Of a stretch of 64,000 bases of DNA, positions 26,067 through 49,448 are shown piece after piece. How positions within the stretch are numbered: the first letter of the stretch is position 1; the number at the start of each line of letters is the position of its first letter. Origin of the DNA: Magnetococcales bacterium (GTDB lineage Bacteria; Pseudomonadota; Magnetococcia; Magnetococcales; JADFZT01); assembly GCA_015232395.1 (NCBI GenBank), contig JADFZT010000012.1:1-64000 (forward strand). Reading direction: 5' to 3'. The notes under the pieces are model-generated. The model had not been told where the DNA came from. It made no database searches and saw only the letters and a program-made list of their open reading frames with translations. Position numbers and translations under genes: made by a program.

Positions 26067-26343
26067 AATAAATGCTCCCTTCTTTGGGTGATGGAACGGA
26101 CCCTCAGGCCCGAATAGACAAACAGTTTCCCCTCTTTGGATGGTTCCCAGAGCCACACCCTTCCCAGGAGGTTTCCCGTGGCCTGCTTCCAGCCGCCGCA
26201 ACGCTTTTTCAAGCGGAATAAACGGATTGATTCAGCACCTGGGCGTTTTTGTTCCCAAGGTGAATAAAACAGGAGATGATTTTAAGCCAATCACACCCTT
26301 GTGCTTTTCTGGTCAGTGGTGTCAGGGGGTGGCTGGGATCTCC

Positions 26344-28104
26344 TTAAAAACTTTTGAATTCAGCGTCATCCCTACCATCATCCCTACCACTGCTCCCATC
26401 ATCCTGCCACTCATCTTCAGGTGGTGGGCGTTGTGCGGGTGTATCCGGCTGGTCGAGGGGAACGGGTAAAAAATCGGCGTCGGTATCACCTCCCCCTTGG
26501 GCCTGGGCAAAGGGAATCAACCCTTCGGCTTTCAGGTCTTCCATCTCCCCAAAGCAGTCCACGCAGAAGAGATCCACGGTCTCTTTGAGGCGGGAGGATT
26601 GGTCGGCCAGTTCATTGCCGGTGTTGGCCATGGAATCGGAGGCGATGGTGTTTTTCTGAATCACCTGATCCAGCTCCTGAAGGGCCTTGTTGATCTGCTG
26701 AGTTCCGGTATTTTGTTCGCTGCTGGCCGCAGCAATCTCTTGCACCAATCCCGAGGTTTTTTGGATATCCGGGACCAGTTCCGCCAGTTGCGTGCCTGCT
26801 GTTTCGGCGATATTGACGCTGGAGGCGGAGAGCTGGGTGATCTCTCCGGCGGCCACCTGACTGCGTTCGGCAAGCTTGCGCACTTCCGCAGCGACCACAG
26901 CGAACCCTTTGCCGTGTTCCCCGGCCCGGGCGGCCTCAATGGCGGCGTTCAAGGCGAGGAGATTGGTTTGGCGGGCGATCTCTTCAATGATGGAAATCTT
27001 GCCAGCGATCTCCTTCATCGCATCCACGGCTTTAGCCACGGCTTCACCACAGGATTCGGCGGATTTGGCAGCCTTGGCGGCGATCACTTCAGTCTGCTGG
27101 GCGTTGTCGGTGTTGTGTCGAATGGAGTCGCTCATCTCCTCCATGGCTGAGGAGGTCTCTTCCACTGAGGCGGACTGTTGGGAGGCATCCTTGAGGATTC
27201 CCTGGGCAGCCGTTTGCACCTCAAAGCTTCCCTGGACGACGGGGGTGGAGGCTTGGGAGACGTTGCGGATGATGTCGCGGATTCTGCCCACAGCGGAGTT
27301 GAGGCTGCGAGCCATGTGACCGATTTCATCCTGGCGGCCTTCCATATCCAAGACATAGGTAAAATTGCCTTCCCCCAGCACCTTGGCAAAGGTGACCGAC
27401 TGTTCCAGGGGTTTGGTAATCATTCGGGCAAAAAGCAGGGCAGTGCCGAGGATGATCAGGATGAACACCCCCAGGATCGAGGCGATGATGTTGCGATTGT
27501 TGCCGATGGTTGCGCCGAAGCCGCTGGAGAGATCCTGAATTTGGGTGTTGGCCTGGCTCATCTCCTGGCTGAGTGCCTTGCCTTCATTCAGCTCTGAGGA
27601 GAGATTTTTCAGGCCATCCACTTCCAGGGCGATCCCTTCGGTGAATGATTTCATCTCCTTGACGGCTGCGGAGAGACCGATCAACGCCTCCCGTTTCATC
27701 CCCTCCTGGACATCGCTTACCTCGTCGGCGATCTCCTCCATCATTTCTTGGGGTTCCCCCTCGGGAAGCTCATCATAGAACTCTTCGACCGTCTCGGTCA
27801 GCTCGGTGAGGGTTTCGGAAAGATTTTTGATTTTCCGCTCGGTAATTTTCAACCGCTGATTGGTCTGGGTGATCCCTTCGGCAATATTGGCAAACCGAAT
27901 CGACGTTTCCGAAAGTCCGCTGTCTGCTGCGCTGATACGGCTTTCGGCCTGTTGGGCATTTTGTACTCCGCTGGCCGCTTGGTTGAGAATCATCTCAAAG
28001 CCGGCATCCAGGCGGTTGAAAAAATAGACGGTAAGTGCCAGAACGAGTCCCAGTAGCAGGCTCATCAGCACTCCGTTGCCAATGAGTTTGTGCTTGATGG
28101 TCAT
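26344..28104 (-). CDS. methyl-accepting chemotaxis protein
   Basis: The likely start is ATG 28104 ([19 protein letters not shown]), giving 586 aa; the frame extends upstream but is not supported. A first membrane helix (residues about 9-30) is followed by a helical periplasmic domain of about 170 residues with no named family, a second helix (about 190-210), HAMP, and a signalling domain with the tip [22 protein letters not shown] in pieces. The C-terminus ends in acidic residues and AEFKSF, nearly the same tail as the CHASE3 receptor (DEFESF), a probable CheR/CheB docking site. It lies upstream of the PilJ-domain gene on the same strand. Confidence 0.93.
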
Positions 28105-28514
28105 AATTGATCCCCAGAGGAGCTGAGCGGCTGGAAGGGTGGTGGTGAGGCCCTTCTTCTGTTTTGTTTTTGAGGCCACCAAAATGAATGCCTCAACCGC
28201 TAGAGTGCTACAATCTAGACCACCAGCCAAGCCCAATAATTTGATCGGGGTTAATTTTTATGACAACGTGACAATTATCTCAATCACTCCTCTTGAAAGG
28301 ATACCGCTTCAGCCATCTTCCCAGCTGTTTCCAGGCCGCTTTTTGATATCATTCCTTCCAGACAGGGTTTCGTTATTTCATGGATCCGGATTTTTTTTCA
28401 ACCTGAATCCGCCCAAGCTACCCTCTTCCAAACCCACCCCCTTTTCCTGGCTCCTCTCTTTCGATACCCTCCCTCCTAAACATCAAGCTGATTTGGACAG
28501 GATGCTCCGACGAT
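28105..28514. other. divergent intergenic region
   Basis: The gap lies between the start of the chemoreceptor gene and the plus-strand rhodanese gene. It should hold both promoters. An overlapping open frame (28139-28546) lacks coding character and clashes with the rhodanese start. No operator or RNA gene is recognised. Confidence 0.45.
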
Positions 28515-29035: not shown

Positions 29036-30406
29036 TTATCCCCGGCAGCTGCCTGAGTTGCTGGGAAAGGCGATGACGCCGGGTATCGACCGGCCATCTG
29101 CCAGAACCCCTTTGACCACCACTTGGGATCCCTGCATCACATAGTGGGCTTCGATATGACGGGATTTGGAAAAAGAGTCCCCCACCAAAGCTGATAATCC
29201 TCCCAGCAGAGCTGCATCAAAAATTCGCGGAAAGATTCGCACCACTCTCCCCGCTGAAATCCCGTGGCGGTTGCGGATTGTCCGGGCTTCGGAGCGCTCC
29301 CCAGGTGCCAGCCCGTTGAGGGATTGGCGGATAAAGGCGCTGTAGCGGTCCGGATCGATCTGCCAGGGGGTGCCCGATGTCGAGCCTTGTTTGGTATAGA
29401 GCCCGCTGCCGGTCATCACCGCGATGCGCATGCCGTAGCAGCGGCCCAGTATCTGCCCCAGACGTTCTTTTTGGGTGGAGCTGTTGGGCCAGGCGATCTC
29501 GATGGCGGGTCCGGAACCGTGTTCCAGGAGTCGCAACAGGGTGCGTCCAGCGACTGTTTCAGCTGAGCGGTGGGTCACCTGAATGGTTCGGGTGGGGGGG
29601 GATGGGGTCGGTTTTGGCGGTGAGGAGTGCACCTCTCTGGGTTGAACGGGTGTGAGGGGCTTGAGGGGCTGGGTAGTTGGGGTGGTGTCGGCCCGGGTAG
29701 CGGCTGATTTCCGAGGAGCAAGGGGCTCCCGTTCTTTTAATGCTGGTGGGGTTGATGGCGTGGATTTTACCTTTAGAGGGGTGAGGGGTGCCCTCTGATA
29801 GGGTGGCGGGGGCTCTTGGGTTGCCAATGGTTTTTTTGCAGCAGCCAGGGGGGTGATGGTGCTGGTGGTGGCGGTCGTGGGGGTGGGGATCTCCTCCCGG
29901 GGTTTCAAGGCGGTGATCTCCAGGTGTTTTTCTGCTTTGAGGCTCACCTTGGCTTGGCGCGGCTTGAGGGGGGCGATTTTTTCCACGGTAGCGGTTTGGG
30001 TTTCAGGGGTAGCAGCCCTTTCGGTTGCACGCAGGGGTTGGATCTCCTGCACCGGTGGCGAGGCTGGCTCCGAAGGCTTGGGAGCATCCAGGGTGGCGGC
30101 ATTGGCTCGGCTTGGCTGGGCGTGATCAATCGGCTTGGCACGTTCAGCCGGGGGAGGGGGAAGAGAGACCATCTCCATGCGGGCGGGATCCATCATTGGA
30201 TTTGGGGTGGATTCCTGCTGGCGTGTGGCGCTGGGCTCCAGGGTGGCTGGGGGGGTGATATTCTTCGCGGGCTCTGTCACCGAAGGGGTGGGCTCTGCTA
30301 TTGGCTCGGGCCGTTTTGGCGCAGTTTGGGATTGAATCAGGATCATCAGACCGATCAGCAATGGAGCCAGGGGGGCCAGACGATTGATCATGGGGGTGGC
30401 GGTCAT
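29036..30406 (-). CDS. membrane-anchored proline-rich protein with C-terminal periplasmic domain
   Basis: The protein is 456 aa: one N-terminal helix (about residues 10-25, LAPLAPLLIGLMILI), a 250-residue linker rich in Pro, Thr, Ala, Glu and Lys, and a compact C-terminal domain (about 285-456; RTLLRLLEHGSGPAIEIAWP, LGRCYGMRIAVMTGSGLY, SRHIEAHYVMQGSQVVVKGVL). This layout resembles TonB or TolA, which cross the periplasm on an extended linker. It is the last gene of the twelve-gene minus-strand cluster and lies 140 bases after the gene at 30546. The C-terminal domain is not recognised. An envelope-spanning role is inferred. Confidence 0.8.
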   Translation of the reverse strand: MTATPMINRLAPLAPLLIGLMILIQSQTAPKRPEPIAEPTPSVTEPAKNITPPATLEPSATRQQESTPNPMMDPARMEMVSLPPPPAERAKPIDHAQPSRANAATLDAPKPSEPASPPVQEIQPLRATERAATPETQTATVEKIAPLKPRQAKVSLKAEKHLEITALKPREEIPTPTTATTSTITPLAAAKKPLATQEPPPPYQRAPLTPLKVKSTPSTPPALKEREPLAPRKSAATRADTTPTTQPLKPLTPVQPREVHSSPPKPTPSPPTRTIQVTHRSAETVAGRTLLRLLEHGSGPAIEIAWPNSSTQKERLGQILGRCYGMRIAVMTGSGLYTKQGSTSGTPWQIDPDRYSAFIRQSLNGLAPGERSEARTIRNRHGISAGRVVRIFPRIFDAALLGGLSALVGDSFSKSRHIEAHYVMQGSQVVVKGVLADGRSIPGVIAFPSNSGSCRG

Positions 30407-30545
30407 GGCTTGCTCGCTCCAGGGTGAATGAATGGTCGTGATGTGATCAGGAGGAATTCTCTAAGGAGATCATGAGAGGCCGAAGGGGATTCCTCCTATG
30501 TAATGGGTGCGCTTTGGGAAACCGTGAGAAAAAAGCATTGAAGAC

Positions 30546-31352
30546 TTACTCAATGGTATTTTTCAGATAGAGCAGCTCCATCTCCTGAGCCAGGGCATAA
30601 AGCTCCTGACGCCGCTCCCGGGGGGTCATGAAACTTTCCCCTTCAGCGATGCCGATCACGGGCTGGGTGGGGGTGGGAGAGACATATTCAGCGATCACCC
30701 CATTGTCAGCAATCAACTGTTCAACCTCCCTTTCCCCCAGCACTTCCGCCCGGCGTTGGGTCACCGCCGGATCCATATCGTCCATGGGCAAGGCGGCCTT
30801 GGCGGTGGGAGGAGGGCGACGGGTACGGGGTTGGCTTCGAGGTTGAGTGCGGGGCTTGGCGCGGATTTGGGGCGTGGGCGTGGGGATGGCTTCCGCTTCC
30901 ATCAGCGCCGGGCTCTCTTCTTGCGTCTCATCAGTCAGGGCTGTTTCTTCCACCATTGTCGGTTTGGGATCAGCCATCCCACCATGGGATTCTTTGCTGG
31001 AGAGAGGCTCGCCAAAACCCTCGGTCGGTTTGGTCAGCGTACGGGAATAGGCCGGGTTTCCAGCCAGCACCGGCTGGGGCGTGACATCCCGCTCTTCAAA
31101 GTGATGGGGGGTCGCTTCAGGCTCTTGCCCCTGATCAAAACTTGAGAAAGCATCTCCGGAGTTAGTTTGATCTGCTTCGGGGAAGGTGCGAGAGAGATTT
31201 TCCAGCACCTCCTGCTCGACACTTTCAGCCATTTTTTGGACCTGGGTCACGGTGGCTTTGGCTTGATCGGGGCGACCGGTCATCTCTGGATGGTTGGTGA
31301 AGAGATAAAAAATGGCATAGCCGACGATGGCGTTGAAGAGAATGAATCTCAT
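30546..31352 (-). CDS. membrane-anchored Pro-rich protein, cotranslated with the TolQ-like channel
   Basis: The protein is 268 aa. An N-terminal helix (residues about 2-18, RFILFNAIVGYAIFYLF) is followed by a long disordered, acidic then Pro/Arg-rich linker and a C-terminal segment (MTPRERRQELYALAQEMELLYLKNTIE) that looks helical. Its ATG overlaps the stop of the TolQ-like gene by 4 bases (ATGA), which suggests coupled translation and a direct partnership. The helix lacks the membrane aspartate of ExbD/TolR, so it is not a standard stator partner. No family is recognised. Confidence 0.8.
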   Translation of the reverse strand: MRFILFNAIVGYAIFYLFTNHPEMTGRPDQAKATVTQVQKMAESVEQEVLENLSRTFPEADQTNSGDAFSSFDQGQEPEATPHHFEERDVTPQPVLAGNPAYSRTLTKPTEGFGEPLSSKESHGGMADPKPTMVEETALTDETQEESPALMEAEAIPTPTPQIRAKPRTQPRSQPRTRRPPPTAKAALPMDDMDPAVTQRRAEVLGEREVEQLIADNGVIAEYVSPTPTQPVIGIAEGESFMTPRERRQELYALAQEMELLYLKNTIE

Positions 31353-31900
31353 GAGAGTTCCCCTTGCCGGGCTTCTTGGGGCACCCGGAAGTGTCGTTGA
31401 TTATGGGCGTGGGTGACCATCAGCAAGGCTCGGAGTACCGCTGAGACCGGTAGTCCCACCACGGTGGTCATGAAGGCCATGGAAAAATGATCGGTCAGCT
31501 CCGAGATGATCCCCTGAACGGTTTGAGGGGTGAGTTCCTGCCCCGCCAGGGAGCCGATACCGAGGCTGATGCCGAGCAGGGTATAGGTCAGCGCCAGGGT
31601 GGTGATGCCGTTGGCCGCCTGCAATCCCGCTTCCACCCACACCTGATCGTTACGCGCCTCTTCACTCGTGGGCAAAATCCGCACCCAGCAAAAGAGGGTG
31701 ATGAAGATCAGGGTGGCCATCAGCACGATAAACAGGGAGCCGAATACCCGCTGCAACCAGCCGGTGATTTCTGCCACCCCCATGGAGGAGACCATGGTCG
31801 TTGCGGCCAGGAGCACGATGCCCCCTCCCAGGAGATAGCTCAGGGTGGCGCTTCCGGTGTGCAGGGTCTTCAGGGTTTGGGGTTGCAGTGGCAGGCGCAT
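31349..31900 (-). CDS. MotA/TolQ/ExbB-like proton channel protein
   Basis: The protein is 183 aa with about four hydrophobic segments. Residues about 105-165 match the MotA/TolQ/ExbB signature: ALTYTLLGISLGIGSLAG (the TLLGLLGTV-like helix), then ELTDHFSMAFMTTVVGLPVSAVLRALL (the AL-x-TT-x-GL-x-v helix). Such proteins form a pentameric ion channel that powers a rotating or pulling partner across the periplasm. It is smaller than TolQ. It overlaps the upstream gene by one base (TAATG) and the downstream gene by four bases. This is the motor candidate of the cluster. Confidence 0.8.
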   Translation of the reverse strand: MRLPLQPQTLKTLHTGSATLSYLLGGGIVLLAATTMVSSMGVAEITGWLQRVFGSLFIVLMATLIFITLFCWVRILPTSEEARNDQVWVEAGLQAANGITTLALTYTLLGISLGIGSLAGQELTPQTVQGIISELTDHFSMAFMTTVVGLPVSAVLRALLMVTHAHNQRHFRVPQEARQGELS

Positions 31901-32295
31901 TACCGTCTCCCGGAGCGGGCGTTCATGATGGCGTGGCTGGAGAGGCCCAGCTGCTCCATCCAGTGGTCGATGATCAGCCGATCCTTTTCCAGAGCGGCGT
32001 GAACCAGAAAGGTGAGATCATAATTTTCAAAGGCGGTGCGTACTGTCGGCGTGCTGGCGCTGGCGGCACCTTTATCCCGCCACACCAGCCGCTCCAAGCT
32101 CGCCAGGCGTCGGGCTGATTCATCCGCCTTGTCCCGACGCTCCTGGGCGGTCATATCCGGGGCGAGCCAGGTGGTGATCAACATCGACCGTTCCCGCTCC
32201 ATGTTTTCCAGAGTACCGGATTTTGCAGGGGTGGCGGTGGTGATGAATCCCATTGCCAGGAAGGCTGCGATCAATAAATGTCGTTTGCTTTTCAT
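31900..32295 (-). CDS. small exported protein, hypothetical (131 aa)
   Basis: A signal peptide (MKSKRHLLIAAFLAMGFITTATPAKSG) precedes about 105 residues of charged, helical sequence (MTAQERRDKADESARRLASLERLVWRD). There is no cysteine lipobox and no family I can name. It overlaps the TolQ-like gene start by one base and follows the coiled-coil gene by about 70 bases. It is probably a periplasmic component of the same machine. Confidence 0.75.
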   Translation of the reverse strand: MKSKRHLLIAAFLAMGFITTATPAKSGTLENMERERSMLITTWLAPDMTAQERRDKADESARRLASLERLVWRDKGAASASTPTVRTAFENYDLTFLVHAALEKDRLIIDHWMEQLGLSSHAIMNARSGRR

Positions 32296-32368
32296 GGTTC
32301 GATTCCTTGTCCTGTCCGGTCTGAGAAGGGCTCGCTGAAGGAGCTTTCCCTACTGACGGTTTTAATGA

Positions 32369-33280
32369 TCAGTGGCTGATGAAGAGATCCACCATGGAGG
32401 TGACACTTTCCGATTCGATGACATCGCTGTCGGCGAATTCGGCATCGTTGACCTCTTCGGCCAGGGACATGGCATCCAGTGCCACGAGTTTGGCCATGTA
32501 GCCGAGAATGGTCTCTTCCTGATCCACCAGGGCATTTTCGGTTTCGCTGTCGGCGATCAGCTGACGGAGATAGCCTTTTTTATCCATCCCCTGACCGTTG
32601 ATGTCGCTCTCGGAGCCCATGGGGTGGTCGTTGATGGCGGTGACCAGGCGTTCGATGGCGGTTATGTTTTTTTGATATTCCCGACCATAGCGCCCCTGTT
32701 CGGCTTGTGGGTTGGGGCCAAACAGCTTGAGGTCCACTTTGGTGACCGAATTTTCAAACCGCTCCCGGACCTCTTTTTGCCGCTCGGCGATGTCAAACCC
32801 GATTTCGCCATTTTGGTTCGCCTTGCGGTTGACCTTTTTCAGGACATCCTCATAGACGCGGATGGCGGTTCGGACCCGCTTGCGGCGTAGATCCAGGCGG
32901 CTGTTCATCATGCCCAGAAAGGCCCGTTTTTCCGCCAGGAGTTGATGTTTGAGTTCGGTGCGAACCTCCCCCTCGGACTGCTCGACGGCGGCTTTGAGGT
33001 CGTTCAGGGTTTGGTTTTTCAGCCTGATCTGGGAATCCATGTCGCTGATGGCCAGGGCCAGCTTGGAGCCGCTGAAATCCTGATCCACCGCCTTTTTGAG
33101 ATAATTGGCCGGGAGCTTGATCAGACGTTCGCTCAGGTTTGGCCGCCAACTCGATTCATTGAGTGGCTTGTTGCTGGCGGCAGCTGGTGTGGCCTGGCAG
33201 AGAGTCAGGCTCAACAAGGCGGCGGCTGCCAGGCGTGTCAGAGGCCGATGGAAACGGTCCCCGGTAGTGGCGTTCTTCAT
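32369..33280 (-). CDS. exported coiled-coil protein, hypothetical (303 aa)
   Basis: The signal peptide ends near residue 35 (ATPAAASN). The mature part is mostly helical with long charged stretches that suggest coiled coil (about residues 75-150: QIRLKNQTLNDLKAAVEQSEGE and so on) and a second helical part at 165-300. No catalytic motif is visible. It lies between a lipoprotein gene and a small exported protein gene in the cluster. A periplasmic scaffold is the simplest reading, from position and composition only. Confidence 0.75.
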   Translation of the reverse strand: MKNATTGDRFHRPLTRLAAAALLSLTLCQATPAAASNKPLNESSWRPNLSERLIKLPANYLKKAVDQDFSGSKLALAISDMDSQIRLKNQTLNDLKAAVEQSEGEVRTELKHQLLAEKRAFLGMMNSRLDLRRKRVRTAIRVYEDVLKKVNRKANQNGEIGFDIAERQKEVRERFENSVTKVDLKLFGPNPQAEQGRYGREYQKNITAIERLVTAINDHPMGSESDINGQGMDKKGYLRQLIADSETENALVDQEETILGYMAKLVALDAMSLAEEVNDAEFADSDVIESESVTSMVDLFISH

Positions 33281-33307
33281 GGTGATGCCCTTTCCTTCGG
33301 CTGGGGG

Positions 33308-33889
33308 TCAGTTCCGGGACCAGTAGTCCACCCGACGGATTTCGTCTTTCAACGGCTCCGGGGCGTTCAACAGGGTATAGTTGGGAAACTCATTGGGTTT
33401 GGTCTGGCTGATGAGGATTTTCATGCTGTCGGTGAAGGAGGAGCCGTCGGTAAAGTAAAGATCATTACCGTCGAAGGCCTCTTCAAAGCGCTGCACATTG
33501 GCGGCGGCGGTGGCCAGATCCCCCCCCTTGATATAGTTGACGATACCCAGCGCATAGGCCCGCATGCGCTCTTCCTGGCTCAAACCCGCCACCTGGGGCC
33601 CCAAATCCGCTTCACACCGCTCCAGCAGTCGGGCACTGGCCAGCCAGCGGGCCTGGGAGCCGGTGGTTCGGGCTTGGCTATCCAGATCAAGGGCCTGATC
33701 CCGGCAATCCCGGAACGACTGCATCGCCCCGATTTCGGCAAAGCGGGCTTGTCGATAGCCGATCCCTTCCGGGGGAGATTCAGCCAGCAGATTGGCGTTG
33801 CATCCGGTCAACACCATCAAAGCCGCAGCCATGAGCGTACGGCGACCCCAGTGATGGGGGGAAAAACGGGTTTTGGTTGTCTTGTTCAT
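33308..33889 (-). CDS. lipoprotein, hypothetical (193 aa)
   Basis: The N-terminus has a basic stretch, a hydrophobic core and the lipobox LTGC (cysteine near residue 30), so the protein should be lipidated and anchored in the inner or outer membrane. The residue after the cysteine is Asn, not Asp, which fits outer-membrane sorting. The mature part is helical with TPR-like segments (RWLASARLLERCEADLG, AYALGIVNYIKGGDLATAAANVQRFEEAF). It lies 27 bases upstream of the coiled-coil gene. It may be the outer-membrane end of the envelope machine. Confidence 0.78.
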   Translation of the reverse strand: MNKTTKTRFSPHHWGRRTLMAAALMVLTGCNANLLAESPPEGIGYRQARFAEIGAMQSFRDCRDQALDLDSQARTTGSQARWLASARLLERCEADLGPQVAGLSQEERMRAYALGIVNYIKGGDLATAAANVQRFEEAFDGNDLYFTDGSSFTDSMKILISQTKPNEFPNYTLLNAPEPLKDEIRRVDYWSRN

Positions 33890-34220
33890 TCCAGCCTCCT
33901 TTGGTGATTCGTTAGGGAGGGCTATGAAAGGGGTGGGGCGTTTTTTTGCGAAGGAAGCCGAAAAAAAGTGGGAGAGGAGAAAAAAATGGGTTTGGGTGAT
34001 CAGAAATTTCCAAATGATGGCAGGGTGTTAGGGTTTTTGGAATAGCATGGCAAAGGGATGAACCTGTAGGATGCGGTGAGCAACGCGAACCGCATCAATT
34101 AAGACGGATGTGCCATTCTAATCTGGAATGAGTATAAAGATATGGCTTGGTTCCAGGGAGGAAAATAGGGGGACAACATCAGCCCAGTAGAATCAGCCCA
34201 GCAGAAAACTGGCAATAACC
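33890..34220. other. gap within the envelope cluster, with a REP-like element
   Basis: This is the only long gap inside the cluster and may carry an internal promoter. It contains the REP-like hairpin at 34070-34096. No gene is seen; the 3' end of the 880-aa gene lies just to the right. Confidence 0.5.
34070..34096. repeat. REP-like palindrome
   Basis: GATGCGGT and ACCGCATC flank GAGCAACGCGA; with the preceding GTAG it matches a palindrome that is dispersed between genes in many proteobacteria. Only one copy is seen in this window. It could act as a transcript-end structure for the 880-aa gene. Confidence 0.55.
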
Positions 34221-36863
34221 TTACGGCCAGATGGGGCGGGGAGGGGGGCGCTCCTGCTGACGCCGGGGAGGACGGTTGTTGCCTCGGGGGCGGTTGAAGG
34301 CTGGATCCCTGGAGGGGGGATCGAAGTGGGAGTGGTTGCGACCATATTCTGAGCTGAAATCAGGCTCCGGGGTGGGTTCGGGGGTGATATGGATGTGCAA
34401 GGGGGCCTCCTCCCCATCCTCTCCATCCTGCCAATCCCCATCGTGATCATCCTCTTCCCAGCCATCCTCATCACCGCTCCCCCAGTCGTTGTGGTCGTCC
34501 CACCCGCCAGCATCATCACCAGGCCATGCACCCTCGTTTTCCACTTCCGGATCCAACAAAGCCATGGCCGAGGTCTCTTCATTTTCCGGATCGAAACGGT
34601 CTGAATAAACCGATGCAGCACGCTTCAGATCTGTTTCGGGGTCGAAGCCGTTGGCCGTGGCATAGACCATATAAGCCCTCTCCAGATAGGACTCCGCATC
34701 TCCAAATCGCTGCTCATCCTGGGCCTTTTCAGCCATGGCGATATAACGATCCACTATTTGGGCCATGCCCAGCTTGGCAGTCGCTTGGTTGGGATCCAGG
34801 GCCAACACCTCCTGGAAACGGTCGAAGGCGCTGCCCCCGACCGGCTTGGTCAAGCGCTTGGCAGCCATATCCGCTTCGGCTTGGCTGAGGAGTTGGGCGA
34901 TTTGTTGAGCGGGCTTAAGGGTAGCGCCAGAGACTGGTTCAGGGAGTAGAATCACAGCTTGGCTGGATGACTCCGGTGAGTCTGGTGGGGCTATCTCAAT
35001 TGGTGCAATGGCTGCTGCAATGGCCGCCAGATTGGTTGGGCTCGTTTGTTCCGAAGGGAGAGGGGCAGGTGTTGATGGTTCTGTTTGTTGGGAGGCTGTG
35101 GTAACGGTTTCAGCTGACTCTTCTGCCTGCCTGTTCGGGGATTGGGCAGGAGGATTTTCGGTAGCTGTCACCGGTTGGGGTTCAGGCAGGGTGTTGGCCG
35201 GGGGTGGGGGCAGCGTGGATTTGGCCAGGGCCATCGAAGGGGGCTCTATCGTCAGGGTGTGGGGGGCCCAGACAATGGTGACCCCTGCCTTTTCAGCTTG
35301 AGCGCGAATGTCATTCCAGCCGGGGGTGCCGGGTTGGATGTCGTTTTGGCGCATCTCTCCAGAAAGCCACTCCAGCACTTCGGTGACGGGTTGATGGGCT
35401 GCGGCCACCAAAATGGCTTGGGATTTGGTTTGGGCATCTTCAACAGGAGGTGACAACGCCAGGGGGAGAGTAGCTTCCTCTTGGTTGGCAATCAGCTGAT
35501 CAGCGGAAAAGTGGGGGGGATCAAGCTGACTGGCAGCCTCTGCAACCTCTCCAAAGAGCCCCACCCGCAGATGCACGGGCGCTCCGGATTGGCTGACCTG
35601 ATAGGTGATGCCGCAGAGCCCTGCCTGGGGGGAGTCCTGAAAGCGCCCCGCTTCGGTCACCCCGATGGGATGTTGTTGGGTTTTCTCCAAAGAATCCGGG
35701 CAGGGATTGTCGGGGGAAATGCGCTTTTCGGTGGCGGTCAATGCCAAACGATTGGGTTGGGGGCGAAATCGAGCGAGAACAGTTTGATAGCTCGTCAAAA
35801 GCAGCTGGCAGGATTGGCAGGAGCCCTGCTCTACACTCTTGAAAGCAGCCTGAAGCGTAAGGAATTGCCCGGAGCGGCGCAGGCTTTCCCATTCCCCCAC
35901 TCCTCCCATCCAGGAAGCTCCGGAGAGGGTGGCCAGCACCGCCATCCAAGCAGCTGCCTTCCATAATCCCAGTTTTTGTCCAGTCGCCGGGATTTTATTC
36001 GGCGTGTCGATATCAGCAGAAGGGCTTGGTGGCTGGATCGGGGGTGGTGGACTCTGGGAAGCCTTCTCCAGGGGCTCGGAGATTCCAGAAAGAGTTTCGT
36101 CACCCTCAAAAATCGGTTCGGTTCGTTGTGAAAGGAATGCGTTGGCATCTGTAAGCGCCTGACTCGATTCGGCCAGCGGTTCGATGGTCTCATCCAGAGG
36201 GCCGTTGGCCGCGGCTGCGGGGGTGGTGGCGAGTAGAGAAGCGGGCAACACCCCAGCCGCTACCGTAGGAGCTACCGAAGGCGCTTCCCCCGGCAAGGTC
36301 ATATCCAGCACGCCCAACGCTTCGGATACGTGGTTGACGCCCACCACCTGATCCCGGCCAACCCCCATCTCAGCCAATAGATTCCAGTCGAGTTCCCGGG
36401 CATTGGCTTCCGGCAGGATCAACAGGCTTTGGATGCCGGTTTCCTGCCACTCCTGGAAGAGTTGCCGGGAGGCGGCGAGTTTTTCCGGGATATGGCTGAC
36501 CGGGCGTACTTCCAGATCCCGATCCACCTCACCGCTCATCCAGACAGCTCGCTGAGCGCTCTCCCGGGGGCTGGCCAGAAGCTTTTTTTCATGCAGGGCG
36601 TGGGCGGTGAAAATTCCCAACTGCCAGCTGGCTCCCCCGGTGATGCGGGTGGTGAGATCCACCCGAAAGGTGGGGTGACCGAACTGTTTTTCGATGATTC
36701 CCGTAGGCTTGCGGACAAAGGCATCATATCCACCACTGATGGGCAGGGCTTCCGTGGTGCGGTTGAGGCACACCACCGAGCGGACCAGGGGATCCTCTTC
36801 GGCAATGCGCTCCACCTGGGAGGGGCCGTCCGTAGTGGGGATATGGACCTGGGTCGGTTTCAA
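34221..36863 (-). CDS. membrane protein with degenerate Lon-protease-like domain and TPRs (880 aa)
   Basis: Residues 60-190 follow the Lon (S16) proteolytic-domain pattern: ITGGAS79WQLGIFTAHAL, VWMSGEVD, VRPVSHIPEKLAAS, and LLILPEANARELDW. Ser79 sits at the catalytic serine position, but the catalytic lysine (GGxKEK in Lon) is Pro126, so the domain is probably not a working protease. A Pro-rich linker leads to one membrane helix (about 299-317), placing the Lon-like domain in the cytoplasm. The periplasmic part ends in two TPR-like repeats (about 690-780), an acidic stretch with LHIHITP, and a Pro/Arg-rich tail. The TTG start overlaps the upstream stop (TTGA). It is the largest protein of the cluster. 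Confidence 0.82.
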   Translation of the reverse strand: MKPTQVHIPTTDGPSQVERIAEEDPLVRSVVCLNRTTEALPISGGYDAFVRKPTGIIEKQFGHPTFRVDLTTRITGGASWQLGIFTAHALHEKKLLASPRESAQRAVWMSGEVDRDLEVRPVSHIPEKLAASRQLFQEWQETGIQSLLILPEANARELDWNLLAEMGVGRDQVVGVNHVSEALGVLDMTLPGEAPSVAPTVAAGVLPASLLATTPAAAANGPLDETIEPLAESSQALTDANAFLSQRTEPIFEGDETLSGISEPLEKASQSPPPPIQPPSPSADIDTPNKIPATGQKLGLWKAAAWMAVLATLSGASWMGGVGEWESLRRSGQFLTLQAAFKSVEQGSCQSCQLLLTSYQTVLARFRPQPNRLALTATEKRISPDNPCPDSLEKTQQHPIGVTEAGRFQDSPQAGLCGITYQVSQSGAPVHLRVGLFGEVAEAASQLDPPHFSADQLIANQEEATLPLALSPPVEDAQTKSQAILVAAAHQPVTEVLEWLSGEMRQNDIQPGTPGWNDIRAQAEKAGVTIVWAPHTLTIEPPSMALAKSTLPPPPANTLPEPQPVTATENPPAQSPNRQAEESAETVTTASQQTEPSTPAPLPSEQTSPTNLAAIAAAIAPIEIAPPDSPESSSQAVILLPEPVSGATLKPAQQIAQLLSQAEADMAAKRLTKPVGGSAFDRFQEVLALDPNQATAKLGMAQIVDRYIAMAEKAQDEQRFGDAESYLERAYMVYATANGFDPETDLKRAASVYSDRFDPENEETSAMALLDPEVENEGAWPGDDAGGWDDHNDWGSGDEDGWEEDDHDGDWQDGEDGEEAPLHIHITPEPTPEPDFSSEYGRNHSHFDPPSRDPAFNRPRGNNRPPRRQQERPPPRPIWP

Positions 36864-37414
36864 TGGAGAAAAATCTCCGTTTCTATTCGCCGTATGGCTT
36901 GCACCAGGGGCGAGTCGCTATCGGCCAGCAGCTGCACCACCCCCCCCAACGCTTCGGGCAGGGCTTGTTTGATCACCCCCAGCTCCGGGTGAATCAGGGT
37001 GATCGATTCCGGGTGGCGCAAAATGTGTTCCTCCAGGTGGATCAGGATATAGACTTGGCTCGATTCCACCCGGGAAGATTTGATCTCAATGACAAATCCT
37101 TTTTCCTTGCGCTTCGTCAATTCTCCCAGGGAGCTGGCAGCTGCCACACTGGGAAAATGACACACGGCTCGTTTTTGCAACAGTCGTTTCAGATCTTCCC
37201 GCAGGCGAGGGTTTTGCAGCAGCATCCGCGCCATTTTGGCATTTGGCCTGACTGTGGGAGTGGCCGCCAGCCGGTAGAGTTCCTGGAAAGTGACGGTTTC
37301 GTCACTGGCTGACTCCAGAGCCTGGCGGAGGTGATCCCTGTTGGAGAGGGCATCGAAGGCCCGCGTGAGCGCCGGATGACGATGAGAAGGCTCGGCTTGT
37401 CGGGCGTTGTTCAT
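36860..37414 (-). CDS. cytoplasmic protein, hypothetical (184 aa)
   Basis: The protein has no signal peptide or membrane helix. The first half is helical (ALTRAFDALSNRDHLRQALESAS), the second half alternates strand and helix (KGFVIEIKSSRVESSQVYILIHLEEHIL). No family is recognised. Its ATG overlaps the stop of the 550-aa gene by four bases, and its own stop overlaps the start of the 880-aa gene, so all three are translationally coupled. It probably acts on the cytoplasmic side of the machine, near the Lon-like domain. Confidence 0.78.
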   Translation of the reverse strand: MNNARQAEPSHRHPALTRAFDALSNRDHLRQALESASDETVTFQELYRLAATPTVRPNAKMARMLLQNPRLREDLKRLLQKRAVCHFPSVAAASSLGELTKRKEKGFVIEIKSSRVESSQVYILIHLEEHILRHPESITLIHPELGVIKQALPEALGGVVQLLADSDSPLVQAIRRIETEIFLH

Positions 37415-39063
37415 GAAGCGTCTCCGTATAGTAGGTGAAACTGGGCGCGAAAAAGTTTCAAATCATTTTTGAAGGGGGTTTCCCAACCCGATTGGGCCAG
37501 TTTTTGTAGCCGGTCGAGAAATTCACCCAGGGTGCGGTCGAGATCATTCAAGGCGGCAAGCCCTTGGGTAAATCCCTCAACCCGATCGGGTTGGTTCATC
37601 CCCGCCCCATCAAACCCCTGCCGGTTGAGGCTGCCGAAGGCTTTTTTGGCTGCAGAAGCCAGCTGGGCAGGCTCTTTTCCCACCTTATCCGTTTGGTCGA
37701 GAATGCTGAGAAAACGATTAACCACAAAAACCTGCCCTGAGGATTCGCCATCGCGGTCGGTCAATCCAGAAAAATCAAGCGCCAGGCTCGACCAGTCAAA
37801 ATCAGGCAGCAGGGGGAGCAGATGATCGATGGCAGCCGGGCTTCTGTTTTGAATCAGGACGTGCAGCCCGGCCAGGCGTACCTTTTGGAGCTGATCACGC
37901 AGTTTTTTCAGCCGCTGATGCCGCTCTTCATAGGATTCCACCGGGCCGGTATCGATCAACCGTTGGCGCTCATCCCCACTGATTTTGCGCCGCAGGGCTT
38001 GGGTCAGGCGGGATTGAACCTCTTTGAATACCCCATCCCGGATCACCGAGAGGGGCACTTGGCGGCTCGCTTCGGTGACCTCCAGAAGGGCGGATAAAAA
38101 ATCGTGTTCCCGCTGGGTGAAAAATTTGATCTCATCAGCCGGGGCTTCGTTCAGTAGCTCCAAGGGGTTGGGACGGGAGGTGAGGCCATCCAGCCAGCGG
38201 TCGAGATTTTCGGTATCGGGCTCCACCTCCCCCAGTTCGTGGTTTTGACCGATGGCGTTGGCATGATCAAAACCCTGCCAGCTTTTGGCCCACACCAGGG
38301 ATTGGATCAGGTTGGCGAAGGCTATGAAGACGGCATGGAAGGTCTTGAAATCTACTCCATCGTCACTTTTGGCGGTGGATTCACCCAGCCAAAAATCGAC
38401 AATCGCCTGATCCGTTACCTCCTCCACAGCAAAATGCTCACCAGCAATCTCTTCCATGAAGGCTATGAGCCGGCGCAACTTGCGCTGATTTTGTGCCGAA
38501 GGGAGGTGCTCTCCCAGATAGGCGTAGAGCTTACGGGAGAGGGCGTCGGCGGTTTGGGAAACCCCTTTGCGGCTGGGGGGGGCGGAAAGCATTTTGCCAA
38601 ACAGATCATCCAGCTCGCCATAGCCCAGAGCGGTCAATGAAAACTCCAACAGCGCCGAAAGCACCGGCATCCGCCCAAAGGTGACCGTAAAAGCGCCATC
38701 GGGGTAGGTCAGCGCCAAGCCGTTGGGGAGGAAGGTGACCTCAAGCCCTGGCGGGGTGTTGAACAATCGTGATGTCAAATAGTGCTTGAAGTGGCCGGGG
38801 CGGGCGGAACCGCTTTCCCAAAAGAGCCCTTCATAACGCGTTCCCCCTTCCACCAGCCGAGCGATTTGGATCAAATGGCCAAGTTCCAAAATGGCTGAGG
38901 CGTAGATGCGGCAGGTGATGAGTCGACCCAACTCCCGACAGGCAGCCGGGGTGAATTTGGGGCCGTCGGCAGCTTCCAGCTCTTCGATCCCCTTGAGCAC
39001 GTTTCCCAGCTCTTGGGAGCGTCCGGATCGCAGCAGCAAGGATTCGGAGGAGGCAGCGTTCAT
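37411..39063 (-). CDS. large cytoplasmic helical protein, hypothetical (550 aa)
   Basis: The protein is soluble and almost entirely helical. Visible segments include a possible beta region at 105-135 (GLEVTFLPNGLALTYPDGAFTVTFG), a charged helical stretch (RLTQALRRKISGDERQRLIDTGPVESYEERHQRLKKLRDQL, about 345-390), and a C-terminal helical bundle. I find no Walker, nuclease or kinase motif and no known domain. It is coupled by ATGA to the 184-aa gene and lies 3 bases after the transglycosylase gene. I compared it in mind with ZorC-type proteins and could not support a match. Confidence 0.78.
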   Translation of the reverse strand: MNAASSESLLLRSGRSQELGNVLKGIEELEAADGPKFTPAACRELGRLITCRIYASAILELGHLIQIARLVEGGTRYEGLFWESGSARPGHFKHYLTSRLFNTPPGLEVTFLPNGLALTYPDGAFTVTFGRMPVLSALLEFSLTALGYGELDDLFGKMLSAPPSRKGVSQTADALSRKLYAYLGEHLPSAQNQRKLRRLIAFMEEIAGEHFAVEEVTDQAIVDFWLGESTAKSDDGVDFKTFHAVFIAFANLIQSLVWAKSWQGFDHANAIGQNHELGEVEPDTENLDRWLDGLTSRPNPLELLNEAPADEIKFFTQREHDFLSALLEVTEASRQVPLSVIRDGVFKEVQSRLTQALRRKISGDERQRLIDTGPVESYEERHQRLKKLRDQLQKVRLAGLHVLIQNRSPAAIDHLLPLLPDFDWSSLALDFSGLTDRDGESSGQVFVVNRFLSILDQTDKVGKEPAQLASAAKKAFGSLNRQGFDGAGMNQPDRVEGFTQGLAALNDLDRTLGEFLDRLQKLAQSGWETPFKNDLKLFRAQFHLLYGDAS

Positions 39064-39066
39064 GAT

Positions 39067-39573
39067 TTATCGGCTCGCTGTGAGCAGCCGGCCCTGATAG
39101 CGACTTTGCAGAGAGCGTACTTTTTGTACGTATCTGCGGGTAGCGGGGATGATCCGTGCGTTGGGCAGATCCCCCACCCGTGAACCGCCATTATAATAGG
39201 ATAGCGCCAAGTTCACACGACCCTTGTAACGTTTCAGTAGTCGCGCCATAAAATGCAGCCCCAGGCGAATATTGATGCGGGGGTTCCAAAGGTCATCCGG
39301 GTGGATGCCATATTCGCTGGTGGAGGTGGCGGGCATGATCTGCATCACCCCTCGGGCTCCCTTGTGGCTTTCGCATTTGGGATTGAAGTCCGACTCGGTT
39401 TGAGCCATGGCCAGCGCCAGAGAGACCGGCACCCCCATCTTGACCGCTTCCCGGGCCACCATATTCATGATGCGTTCCCGCTCCTTGTTGGCAGCTTCGG
39501 CCTGATTGAGGGGTGAAAAAATTCCCAGCAGGAGAAAGCCGGTCAGGATGATCTGGATGGTTTTGTTAGGCAT
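39067..39573 (-). CDS. exported lytic transglycosylase, SLT family 1
   Basis: The protein is 168 aa with a signal peptide (ending NQAEAAN) and one SLT domain: SLALAMAQTESDFNP holds the catalytic glutamate, then GARGVMQIMPATSTSEYG, and LALSYYNGGSRVGDLPNARIIPATRRYVQKV. It cleaves the glycan strands of peptidoglycan with formation of 1,6-anhydro ends. Small enzymes of this type open local gaps for envelope-spanning machines such as secretion systems and pili. It lies 24 bases downstream of a second, different SLT gene, which supports a trans-envelope assembly role for the cluster. Confidence 0.92.
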   Translation of the reverse strand: MPNKTIQIILTGFLLLGIFSPLNQAEAANKERERIMNMVAREAVKMGVPVSLALAMAQTESDFNPKCESHKGARGVMQIMPATSTSEYGIHPDDLWNPRINIRLGLHFMARLLKRYKGRVNLALSYYNGGSRVGDLPNARIIPATRRYVQKVRSLQSRYQGRLLTASR

Positions 39574-39597
39574 GATCCGCTCCTTGTTTCACCCTGA

Positions 39598-40533
39598 TCA
39601 GAAAAAATAGCGCCGGTGTGGGGGGGGAGGCGGGGGCCGACGGCGAAAACGTGGTCTCTTTGGTGGGGGCTCCCAGCGCTCTTCGTAGACCACGGGGATT
39701 TCCACTTCGTCGTCATAAGGGGCAATCCAGATCTGCAGCACCTCTTCCCAGTCGCCATCATCCCGAGAGTCACGCCGTTTGCGGGCCTGCCAGCCGGTTT
39801 CATCCTCATCGCCGCTAAAGTGCTCCCCATCCGCGTCATCATTCCCCTCGTCGGGATCGATCCATTCTTGTGAATGATCCTGATAGCGATCTTCTTCATC
39901 CGATCTGTCCCAGTCGTTGGTATCGTCAGAGCGACTGGCGAGGGTATTGGATGATTTGGAGGGAATGGGGGGATTGTCGGAAGCCCACCAGGTGTCGCTG
40001 ATGCCTTGCATGCCCTTCCAGACCCGCTGCTGTTCCAGATAGCGCATCTCCCAGCGGAGTACGGATTGGACAAATTTTTCGGTCTCGGGGAGGGTGGCGG
40101 GATCGGCTGCGAGTTTCAGATCCTGGGATTCGGCATAATAGTCAGCCAGGGCCGCTTCCCGCTCTCCCTGGTGAAGCTCCAGGAGCTGCTTGAGCCGATC
40201 GATACCCAGCTCGACATTTTTTTGTGGATCCCAGAGAATTTCGTCATCCACCTGATAGTGACGCTGGGCGGTTTCCGGGCGAATCTGCATCACACCCCGG
40301 GCGCCGTTTTGGCTGACGGTTTTTTCCTGAAAGTCCGACTCCACCTTGGCGAGCGCCAATCCCAGCGCCGGGGGAAGACCAGCCCGATGAGCCTCTTCCA
40401 CCACCATCCGTTTGATCTCCACCCGGCTGGCGGAATAGGCCGTGGCAGTGGTGAGCAGGAGGGCCATCATGCCCATCAAGAGAATAAACCCCAAACCCCT
40501 TGCCAGGGTGATCTGCTTCTGATCTCCATTCAT
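39598..40533 (-). CDS. lytic transglycosylase with acidic and Pro/Arg-rich C-terminal tail
   Basis: ATG 40533 has an AAGGAG site and overlaps the stop of the upstream gene (ATGA), giving 311 aa. A signal peptide or anchor (residues about 12-33) is followed by an SLT domain with LGLALAKVESDFQEK (catalytic Glu) and NGARGVMQIRPETAQ. The C-terminal 130 residues are low-complexity: acidic repeats (SDDTNDWDRSDEEDRYQDH), WEEVLQIWIAPYDDEVEIP, and a final run of Pro and Arg ending HRRYFF. The 880-aa protein has the same order of acidic stretch, I-x-I-x-P-like strand and Pro/Arg tail, so the two may share a docking module. Confidence 0.9.
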   Translation of the reverse strand: MNGDQKQITLARGLGFILLMGMMALLLTTATAYSASRVEIKRMVVEEAHRAGLPPALGLALAKVESDFQEKTVSQNGARGVMQIRPETAQRHYQVDDEILWDPQKNVELGIDRLKQLLELHQGEREAALADYYAESQDLKLAADPATLPETEKFVQSVLRWEMRYLEQQRVWKGMQGISDTWWASDNPPIPSKSSNTLASRSDDTNDWDRSDEEDRYQDHSQEWIDPDEGNDDADGEHFSGDEDETGWQARKRRDSRDDGDWEEVLQIWIAPYDDEVEIPVVYEERWEPPPKRPRFRRRPPPPPPHRRYFF

Positions 40534-40946
40534 TGTGATTTCTCCTTCAAAACAGCCAGCCACTCCGGGGTCAACGCCGAAACAATCAGATCTCCCACCG
40601 GCACCTGACTACGTACAGCCAGGGCTTCGGACATGGGAATCTCGGGATCCAGAGCCAACACCACCCGCTCTCCTTCGGCGGGAACAACCTGAGCCGGGTC
40701 CACCGGTTGCAGCTCTTTATCCATGAACTGTCCGCTGTGATAGATGATCATCCGATCGATGGGTTTGACCCCGGAGCGTGATTGATTGGCGGGAGAGGCT
40801 GAGGCCTGAGCCAAAGCCGCCCCATCAGCAACCGTACCGTTGCCAGCCCCCATGGAGACCAGAGTCAATATCATGATGCTGAAAAATCCCATGGCCAGTG
40901 CCAGGGCGATTTCAGTCATGGCGTTGTTGGAGTGGTCCATGTCCAT
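40530..40946 (-). CDS. one-helix ExbD/MotB-like membrane protein (138 aa)
   Basis: ATG 40946 has an AAGGA site 6-7 bases upstream, better supported than the longer frame to 41036. After a short N-terminus (MDMDHSNNAMTEIA) comes one membrane helix (about residues 12-30, LALAMGFFSIMILTLVSMG) and a periplasmic domain (PVDPAQVVPAEGERVVLALDPEIPMSEALAVRSQ). The one-helix topology and the residues around the helix resemble stator partners of the ExbD/TolR/MotB class, although the usual membrane aspartate is not visible. It is the first gene of the cluster and is coupled to the transglycosylase by ATGA. It would pair with the TolQ-like channel at 31349. Confidence 0.75.
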   Translation of the reverse strand: MDMDHSNNAMTEIALALAMGFFSIMILTLVSMGAGNGTVADGAALAQASASPANQSRSGVKPIDRMIIYHSGQFMDKELQPVDPAQVVPAEGERVVLALDPEIPMSEALAVRSQVPVGDLIVSALTPEWLAVLKEKSQ

Positions 40947-42880
40947 TGCTTTCCTTCCAGATGGGTGTGACTCGTCAGATGGTGAGACTCGATGTTTGGG
41001 GCTATGGAAGGGGGTGGGGGATTTTTGGTTGCACAAAATCTTGCATTCAGCGTTAATAATAATTTGTTTAAGAAGTTAATTTTTTGTACTATAATCCAGG
41101 TTCTTTGGGATTGTTTTGTTGTTATGGAATTTGTCTTTGTTTGGGGAAAGTTCTGTCTGAAGGTGTTTTGCATTAGGCGTCTGCATGTTTTGAGAAAGTT
41201 ACAACTAAAGATGCGGAGAGTGCCGTGAGCATTCTAAGTAGGTGCGAAGCTTTTATTCGGTGTTGCAAAAAATATTTTGGTTTATTGATGCGTCTTCTTT
41301 GTCAGGAGTGGTTGGAAATATCGTTTGCCAGAAAGTATGCGGACGCTATGTCAGATAAAGGTAACCGTATGGTAAGTAATTATAAACTAATTGAAAATCT
41401 TTTTAGGAAAGCATAAAAGTCTCTCTCTAAGCGCAGGACTGTCACATTTTAAAGGTTATAATTTTTCTGCGAATGGAGCTGTTCGTTCAAGCACGATATT
41501 GGCAACAAAAGCAATTGGCAGGTGATTGAAATCAAGTCATGATGTTTTTTTTGCTGAGATTTTTTTATCTTCTCTCCCAGGGGCTGTAGTAATGCAGGAA
41601 AGTGTTCTTGCAGTTGGTAGTCTGATGAGTGATCCTATCTCTCGATCTGCATTAGAGTATTCCGGTAAAAAGGAGTCTCTCTCACGTAGGCAGGATCCGA
41701 TGATTCCACTGCCGATTGTTTATATATTTAATCCTGATGAAACCGGGCCTTCCCAAACGTGTGAGCGCTGTTTTGCTGAAAAACAATATAAATTTCATGT
41801 AAAGGAGTGGAATATGATGGTCAAGTTCTGGTTCCTGAATATAATGATCGTGGTTGGCTAAAGAAGATTACTTGCTCATCACAAAAATACCCAATATTTC
41901 ATCAAGAGATGCTTTGAGAGACAAGGAAATAGTGATTATTGGTGGCGCGCATGGAACCGGAACGGAGGCGATTGAACTGTTGCTTGACGATAATGATGTT
42001 TGCATGATCTATATGTAGAGACTGTTGGAAGAAATTTTTTTTAAGTTTTGATTCCGATCATTGAAATTGATCATGGCTTGGATTATAGGGTAGATAATCT
42101 CACGGGTCTTAACAGTTAACCGCAGTCCAGAAATTCTTGAAGCCCATAAAGACATGCATGTATATCAGGCAACAAAAGAATCACTGCTTGGCACAAAAAG
42201 ACCATCTGTAAAAAAACATGAATCTGAAAGTAATTGATGCAGCACGTTTTGAAAAGATTCTGGAAGGTGAGGAGTTTGTATGCTTTGAGTCTTCAACTGA
42301 AAAGAAAAATAAATGGCTGCACATGATAGTGTTGCAGAGAAATATGGTATTGCAGGGAAAGAATACAATAACTAAACTCTAGACGCCAAAAACAACCCAT
42401 AAAATCATTTTCTAGAGATGGTAGAGTTAAAGAGAGAGGTTGGAAAGCTAGAAAAAAATGATGAATAATTAAAAGATGAAAACAGTATTCTCCAAGAGCT
42501 TTACGCTGGTGAAGTGGAAGAGCGAATCATAACGGAAATAGCATTACACAAGAATATGGCCATCAATGAGAAATATGAAAAAGTCATTAAATAGGCTGCG
42601 GAGGTGTAACCGCACTATGACTGTGGCTCTTTACGCTACAGTCTTGCCCACCATTTTAAAAAATAGAAGCGACACGGCAAAACGCCCCAACTAATATACA
42701 AAAGTTGGGGTGGTAGGAGTGACAGAGAATTATATTCACATAGTAACAAGAAAGTGAACACCCTGGATTCAAAGAGTGATACATTCCGAAACGAACTCAG
42801 CTACAAAGTGTTGTGAGTTATGGCAAAATGAGGACAGAGTCCTGAACCAAGCTTACGAAATCAAGGGAATAGCAAGAAAA
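40947..42880. other. AT-rich region of decayed genes
   Basis: This stretch is far more AT-rich than its flanks and has only short broken frames. On the plus strand 41225-41416 (GTG start) and 41526-41861 give 63- and 111-aa frames; the second contains SSLPGAVVMQESVLA, faintly like the LPGVVVLHD motif of family 4 glycosyltransferases. At about 41925-42018 KEIVIIGGAHGTGTEAIELLLDD looks like the start of a nucleotide-binding fold that then meets a stop. At about 42420-42593 a coiled-coil frame is broken by a stop. A stem-loop CCCCAACT/AGTTGGGG lies at 42685-42710. It is probably the remains of a surface-glycan gene island. Confidence 0.45.
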
Positions 42881-44164
42881 ATGAAAGAAGAGAAATCATC
42901 CAACAATGGTCAAACACAACTCACAGTTGATGCGGCATATGCACAGGCTATCGACCATTTTAACGCTGAACGTTATACCGAGTCAGACAAGCTATGCACA
43001 GCGATTATCCAAGTGGTTCCTGTCCACATTGATGCAATAAATTTATTAGGTGTTATTGCTCAAAAACTTGATCGCTACGACTTGGCTGTCGATCAGTTTC
43101 AAAAAGCTATAAACATTGATAATAACAGAGCATTATTATACTACAATTTAGGGGCTTCATATTATCAACTGGGACGAATTGAAGAGGCTATCAAAGCTCT
43201 GAATACAGCTTTGGAAAGGGAACCTGGAAACAGCCAAATAATTAATTTTTTAAACGGCATAATCAGCAAGCAATGCCCTGATATTGGAATCAGTAATCAA
43301 CAATATATAGAACAGACCACGAAATTCAGTTTTGACGGCAAAGAAACCAACCTATATGCAATCTTATCATACTCACGCTCTAATAATGTGGATGCTTATT
43401 TGATTTTGGATGCTGCTTTCAAGCAAGACGTATTAATGGCTAAAGAAAAAAGTTTGCTTTGTGGGTTTGTTGGTTTCGTCAAAGGCAAATCTAAATTGAT
43501 CAAATCTCAACTTTACCAAGATGTTTTTGCTGCATATATCATAGGAGATAATTTCAAAAAGACTTTTCTTGAATTTGGAGCTACAGATGGGGTGTCTTTA
43601 TCGAATACTTATTTGTTAGACATGCATATGGGATGGGATGGTATATTATGTGAGCCCAGCCCGCAATGGCATTCAGGATTAAAGAATAATAGAGCAAAAA
43701 CAAAAATATTAACAGACTGCATTTGGACAAAAACTGGAGAGACTCTTGATTTCTTTATGTCAGATGTGGGAGTTCTATCAACTCTAGATTCTTTTAAGTA
43801 TAGCGATATAAATTCTATGCCTGGGAATGCTTCAGCTCGTAATAAGGTCGGGAAAAAAATAAAAGTAAAAACAATTTCTTTGAATGATGTTGTAAGCCAG
43901 TATTATGAAGGAGTGGCTCCATCATATATTTCAGTCGATACAGAGGGGAGTGAATTTGATATAATTAGCTCGTTTGATTTTACTAATTATCGTCCAATCG
44001 TTTGGACTGTTGAGCATAATTTCACAACGCATCAGAAAAAAATTGATGAAATCATGTTGAAGAATGGTTATAAGAGGGTGTTTGAAAATATTACCTCATT
44101 CGATGCATGGTATGTTGATCAAGAGCACTACAATTATCTAAATCTACCAAAAGACCTGCCGTAG
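42881..44164 (+). CDS. TPR-FkbM methyltransferase fusion protein
   Basis: From ATG 42881 the protein has 427 aa; a GTG at 42776 would add 35 residues without coding character. Residues about 15-130 hold three TPR units (AYAQAIDHFNAERYTESDKLC; LYYNLGASYYQLGRIEEAIKALNTALEREPG). The C-terminal 230 residues match FkbM-type SAM methyltransferases: SQLYQDVFAAYI, FLEFGATDGVSLSNTYLL, ILCEPSPQWH, and PSYISVDTEGSEFDIISSF. FkbM enzymes O-methylate sugars or natural products. The gene is AT-rich like the debris upstream, a sign of transfer. It stands near a sulfotransferase and GT41 genes, so glycan decoration is likely. Confidence 0.88.
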   Translation: MKEEKSSNNGQTQLTVDAAYAQAIDHFNAERYTESDKLCTAIIQVVPVHIDAINLLGVIAQKLDRYDLAVDQFQKAINIDNNRALLYYNLGASYYQLGRIEEAIKALNTALEREPGNSQIINFLNGIISKQCPDIGISNQQYIEQTTKFSFDGKETNLYAILSYSRSNNVDAYLILDAAFKQDVLMAKEKSLLCGFVGFVKGKSKLIKSQLYQDVFAAYIIGDNFKKTFLEFGATDGVSLSNTYLLDMHMGWDGILCEPSPQWHSGLKNNRAKTKILTDCIWTKTGETLDFFMSDVGVLSTLDSFKYSDINSMPGNASARNKVGKKIKVKTISLNDVVSQYYEGVAPSYISVDTEGSEFDIISSFDFTNYRPIVWTVEHNFTTHQKKIDEIMLKNGYKRVFENITSFDAWYVDQEHYNYLNLPKDLP

Positions 44165-49400: not shown

Positions 49401-49448
49401 GACACTGAACCCCTGATGATTTAGTGTAGGGCGGGGAGGTGAAAAACT

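Follow-up and report, generated by a model that had tools for sequence, protein, structure and literature searches.

A co-inherited twelve-gene cluster in a Magnetococcales bacterium that probably encodes an undescribed ion-driven trans-envelope machine

We analysed a stretch of 64,000 nucleotides from a Magnetococcales bacterium (contig JADFZT010000012.1, positions 1 to 64,000; hereafter the window), whose genome assembly measures 4.94 Mb and is 99% complete. Positions 29036-40946 hold a cluster of twelve genes, g1 to g12, which a preliminary description made from the sequence had proposed to encode an undescribed ion-driven trans-envelope machine. All twelve open reading frames (ORFs) were present in an ORF check of the window, and all lie on the minus strand. 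The gaps from g1 to g12 measure -4, 24, 3, -4, -4, 331, 27, 73, -1, -4 and 139 bases. Apart from the 331 bases between g6 and g7 and the 139 bases between g11 and g12 they do not exceed 73 bases, and the genes form two runs, g1-g6 and g7-g12. The compact one-strand cluster first described is thus real and tightly packed, and it is also conserved. No tRNA adjoins it within the window. Promoter and terminator scans gave counts no higher than in shuffles and were not used.

The first run begins with g1 (40530..40946), a protein of 138 amino acids with one helix and a candidate stator B subunit. Its start was left at 40946 as first annotated, the start at 41036 being merely an earlier TTG. Glu12, at the N-terminal end of the sole helix, is the only invariant charged residue (29 of 29 homologues). 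The next two genes, g2 (39598..40533) and g3 (39067..39573), encode exported lytic transglycosylases, as previously read, with matches to the Pfam SLT family PF01464 at E-values of 7e-16 and 4e-22. An ESDF motif and an acidic and proline-rich tail are found in g2, and the Glu motif of g3 is present in 21 of 24 members of its family; counting the transglycosylase motif with a regular expression (23/41) proved too strict, and that figure was not used. They are followed by g4 (37411..39063, 550 amino acids) and g5 (36860..37414, 184 amino acids), the latter overlapping both g4 and g6 by 4 bases. Both are cytoplasmic and, as noted before, belong to unrecognised families, with no credible match in Pfam, NCBIfam or PHROGs. 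The run ends with g6 (34221..36863), which starts at TTG and carries an N-terminal Lon-like domain, a probable membrane helix and a long periplasmic part. The tails encoded at 39598-40000 (g2) and 34221-34600 (g6) are similar, acidic and then proline-rich (blastp, weak, E 0.011).

The second run opens with g7 (33308..33889), a lipoprotein as first described, in which the lipobox Cys is invariant (50 of 50 homologues with a residue at that position) and two more Cys are nearly invariant. An exported, helical protein, g8 (32369..33280), matches no known family and served as the marker gene of our surveys. It precedes g9 (31900..32295), which is small, exported and helical and contains the motif LENLERERA, and g10 (31349..31900), a channel with three transmembrane (TM) segments. 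The proline-rich g11 (30546..31352) has an N-terminal anchor and a conserved C-terminal segment. The last gene encodes g12 (29036..30406), a membrane-anchored candidate for a periplasmic force transducer, in which a conserved LP motif and a proline-rich linker are followed by a C-terminal alpha/beta domain of ~170 amino acids with an invariant Cys pair (45/45). By simple hydropathy, g10 has three segments, and g1 and g12 have one helix each. For g6 and g11 the membrane anchors lay below the cut-off of this method and were called by eye, and the membrane location first given for g6 was kept as probable. Beyond the two SLT proteins, nothing credible was found for g1-g12 in NCBIfam and PHROGs, nor in Pfam, where g1-g10 were scanned; g11 and g12 were covered by NCBIfam, PHROGs and PADLOC. 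A PADLOC match of g8 to Cas12c (E 3e-5) was judged spurious, as it is partial and g8 is an exported, helix-rich protein. Searches against PDB profiles gave no match for g4, g8 or g10.

To assess whether the genes travel together in other genomes, as the preliminary description implied, we compared their order across loci. The run g7-g12 was complete, in order and on one strand in 42 of the 50 loci with g8. Five of the eight exceptions end at contig ends (L011, L040, L042, L087 and L091); L111 is without g7, no g11 was detected in L118, and L037 represents a genuine variant. Similarly, g4-g5-g6 stood in order in 29 of 32 loci having g4 nearby, and in 24 of 28 cases the gene after g1 was that of a transglycosylase. 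Iterated profiles recovered the full set in the same order in genome G037 (L015), in genome G038 (L017, L018) and at L008, L035, L038 and L039. The halves are permutable, with g7-g12 ahead of g1, transglycosylase, g4 and g5 in L010 and L034. Genome G037 also holds a second, partial locus (L020:6988-12332) with a transglycosylase, g4, g5 and g6 only, beside FGE-type and CsgG-like genes. By this locus, the cytoplasmic arm g4-g6 can exist without the second half of the motor.

Presence and absence were then counted in 299 genomes of one family, a sample of 52 genera. We detected g8 in 21 genomes and g4 in the identical 21 and no other, spanning seven genera; g1 was found in 21/21 of these genomes versus 0/20 negatives. 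Identical sets of 21 would arise by chance with a probability of ~1e-32 assuming independent genomes; since the genomes are related, the true probability is weaker, and the pattern is far beyond chance. In four genomes (G740, G635, G529 and G717) g4 and g1 lie apart from g8, at other positions or on another contig, and DNA linkage is therefore not the cause of the co-occurrence. The pairwise divergences of ten families correlate at 0.73-0.95, with no housekeeping baseline for comparison. Elsewhere, g8 was found in 7 of 399 genomes of the phylum, 19 of 385 genomes of the class of G048 and 5 of 63 genomes of the order of G052, and g10 in 3 of the 48 genomes of the source genome's class, all 48 from one order. 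Named relatives of g10 come from metagenome-assembled genomes of Rhodospirillales, Rhodospirillaceae, Kiloniellaceae and Magnetospira, and from one of Gammaproteobacteria. Both the ordered loci and the identical genome sets indicate that the genes do travel together.

The channel g10 belongs to the MotA/TolQ/ExbB/ZorA superfamily, a membership established by ZorA profiles and backed by the fold ranking. In PADLOC, ten families matched g10 members at E-values up to 1 and all ten were ZorA; ZorA models matched 14 of 15 members, with a best E of 1.1e-6. The AlphaFold2 model (predicted local distance difference test, pLDDT, 82.8) placed five TolQ chains on top of its Foldseek list, which also included PomA, ExbB, ZorA (probability 0.98) and MotA (0.80). 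T105, T107, G110, G114 and T145 in TM2-TM3 are conserved in 49/49 members; the equivalence of these positions to TolQ positions was judged by eye. The earlier call of a TolQ/ExbB-like channel is thus borne out, with ZorA as the nearest relative. The same genome has a MotA gene, two genes of ExbB type and, next to ruvB and ybgC, a TolQ gene, all far from the cluster, and g10 is therefore an additional channel. This rules out that g10 is the cell's plain ExbB, TolQ or MotA, and the channel scores with ZorA models only. Two ORFs of 1838 and 1695 amino acids, at L050 (G037:C1:1222277) and L051 (G000:C5:102530), have weak MotA_ExbB matches (E 0.0099 and 0.02, respectively) and a ZorA-like motif seen by eye, and may represent a further giant motor-like protein of the class.

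The kinship with ZorA bears on a first alternative, Zorya-like defence or damage sensing, in which a ZorA-type channel would sense envelope perturbation, e.g. phage entry, and trigger g4, g5 and g6 as Lon-like or kinase effectors. The patchy distribution in the phylum, the family and the class of G048 (7/399, 21/299 and 19/385) fits this idea, as do the protease or kinase domains of the cytoplasmic parts, and g1 with its conserved acidic residue would be the one-helix partner. However, the g10 ORFs of 165-216 amino acids are without the long cytoplasmic tail of ZorA, and g1 has no Pfam OmpA-type, peptidoglycan-binding domain; both parts are required for Zorya defence (PMC11890865). In the PADLOC scan of ten products, no ZorC, ZorD or ZorE was detected and no nuclease or helicase, and the cluster instead has ten extra envelope and cytoplasmic genes. 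Furthermore, plasmid and phage searches found no g8, the gene context is stable within a genus and no defence island was seen by eye. Because the effectors, the ZorA tail and the peptidoglycan-binding domain are missing, we rejected membership in Zorya, and a defence role in the wider sense appears unlikely to us.

We next turned to the cytoplasmic arm. Matches of the g6 N-terminal domain to PDB profiles were Lon in 20 of 21 cases (best E 0.0019, over the half with the Lys), in agreement with the Lon-like domain first proposed. Ser79 and Lys128 were conserved in 35/35 sequences, the equivalence of Ser79 to the Ser of Lon being set by eye. The domain has, as judged from its sequence, the Lon (S16) peptidase fold and Ser-Lys dyad, and it is a putative protease. 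The g6 homologue of L035 carries in one chain a Lon-like domain, a Pkinase domain (E 4e-35) and a true TonB_C domain (E 2.5e-18). This fusion links a protease-like part with both a kinase and a known periplasmic force-transducing domain. At other loci, genes beside the cluster encode a kinase that carries PEGA and FGE-sulfatase domains, an FHA protein, PP2C, OmpA and a subtilase. Apart from two full Lon genes, there is a frame of 484 amino acids at L056 (G000:C48:30018-30269) whose match to Lon_C (E 3.6e-5) lies slightly above the cut-off. In the threonine-phosphorylation pathway of type VI secretion, PpkA, PppA, Fha and TagR act together, and the motor of some relatives is similarly accompanied by a kinase, a PP2C phosphatase, an FHA protein and a periplasmic FGE domain. 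In contrast to that pathway, the FGE domain is fused to the kinase, and the relatives' loci showed no recognisable type VI secretion gene.

The remaining parts recall other trans-envelope systems. The cluster shares with Ton (ExbB-ExbD-TonB) a channel and an anchored proline-rich linker, but the set has no TonB-dependent receptor and the genome has separate ExbBD-TonB genes. With Tol-Pal (TolQRA-TolB-Pal) it shares the inner-membrane channel, a candidate one-helix partner, an anchored proline-rich linker and a lipoprotein, and TolQ heads the fold list of g10. A Tol-Pal-like machine for envelope maintenance or division, whose transglycosylases and lipoprotein would remodel the tether of the outer membrane as well as the wall, would also suit the OmpA and peptidoglycan-binding neighbours. 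Yet no TolB, Pal or TolA domain was found in the cluster with Pfam and NCBIfam, the transglycosylases and the Lon-like g6 are additions, and a separate tol locus lies next to ruvB and ybgC in this genome. The sparse distribution and the absence of the genes from most relatives argue against general housekeeping, and we regard a Tol-Pal-like role as doubtful. A motor for gliding or surface motility, comparable to Agl/Glt or GldLM, could use an ion channel, linkers and a lipoprotein of this kind. No Agl/Glt or Gld family was matched in the cluster by Pfam or NCBIfam, however, and no adhesin family travels with it, which leaves motility very improbable.

Neighbouring genes raise a further alternative, namely that the cluster powers the assembly or export of surface proteins and secreted proteases encoded close by in some genomes. 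In L008, L034, L075 and L037 it lies next to genes for exported trypsin, subtilase and caspase-like proteins, and many loci have CsgG-like proteins, a label given by eye to one accessory family in which Pfam names nothing. Two accessory families adjoin 18/33 and 16/33 of the loci surveyed. On the other hand, protease and CsgG-like neighbours are missing from most loci, the surveyed accessory families are also absent from the window, and the core has no export channel. A power unit for export is therefore rather improbable. Within the window, a methyl-accepting chemotaxis protein lies downstream of the cluster beside an exported protein of two similar halves (25149-28236, by eye). Several TPR-repeat proteins and methyltransferase-like genes lie upstream (42776-56464, by eye), where the G+C content falls to 0.365 at 42-44 kb.

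Taken together, we consider it probable that these genes specify a trans-envelope transducer that is ion-driven, has an arm of protease or kinase type in the cytoplasm and is so far undescribed. They are conserved as a set, their channel is not the plain ExbB of a TonB system, and neither the profile libraries (Pfam, NCBIfam, PADLOC and PHROGs) nor the literature searched contained a described system that matches. These results support the machine first proposed, of which we infer the ion-driven nature. In this model, g10 as the A subunit (ZorA/TolQ type) and g1 as the B subunit, with Glu12 binding the ion, would form an inner-membrane stator driven by an ion gradient. Movement of this stator, or a change in its conformation, would pass to g12 and g11, whose proline-rich linkers would cross peptidoglycan opened locally by g2 and g3 toward the lipoprotein g7; g8 and g9 would serve in the periplasm for structure or coupling. 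The arm g4-g5-g6 may connect the machine to the cytoplasm via g6, a probable membrane protein whose Lon-like Ser-Lys domain would face the cell interior and whose sensor-like part would lie outside. Ser/Thr kinase, FHA and PP2C domains adjoin this arm, or are fused to it, in relatives. Such a complex, its use of ions and the direction of its signalling are conjectural, and so is its role, for which sensing or envelope remodelling appears likelier than motility. The alternatives weighed above concern mainly this role, not all of them exclude the machine, and our confidences in them are not meant to sum to one.

Several results weigh against this model. Stator B subunits have an essential Asp, and D24 or D21 of ZorB packs against the Ser/Thr ring of ZorA (PMC11890865), whereas g1 carries a Glu. 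Using hhalign, Pfam and PDB profiles, we found no ExbD, TolR or MotB homology for g1. Of the 'ExbD/MotB-like one-helix' protein first described, the single helix thus stands, while the likeness to ExbD/MotB is one of analogy, and the stator B role was kept as our inference. The protein fits that role by position only, through one invariant Glu, and is a candidate. For g10, no single Foldseek match reached E < 0.001, hhalign found no match to the class's own TolQ/ExbB, and PF01618 matched one member only (E 0.14). Although the C-terminal domain of g12 was modelled well by AlphaFold2 (pLDDT 92.5, predicted template modelling score 0.87), a PDB fold search returned no match (best probability 0.13), which rules out a TonB/TolA-type C-terminus; the g12 homologue of L008 had no Pfam match, and TonB_C was seen solely in the g6 homologue of L035. 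Finally, L009, L012, L102, L112 and L116 have a short form, g1, transglycosylase and g7-g12, without g4-g6 near g8, and the cytoplasmic arm may therefore not be obligatory.

The set was described nowhere in the open-access literature searched. It is probably a variant among ion-driven envelope machines, with a fair chance of being a class of its own. Somewhat more tentatively, it may constitute a separate class on the level of Tol, Ton, Mot and Zorya, in which an ion gradient, together with a periplasmic transducer whose fold is new, would act on a cytoplasmic Lon-like protease or kinase output. Few ion-driven envelope motors are understood, and each of them opened a field. Our analysis adds a co-inherited twelve-gene system, ten families of which are unnamed in any library, carried within Pseudomonadota by magnetotactic cocci, Alphaproteobacteria and one large family with complete genomes. 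The invariant Lon dyad and the fusion with kinase and TonB_C domains point to an envelope motor that is connected with signalling in the cytoplasm. If the system is indeed a separate class, envelope force or the state of the wall would be read out as proteolysis or phosphorylation inside the cell.

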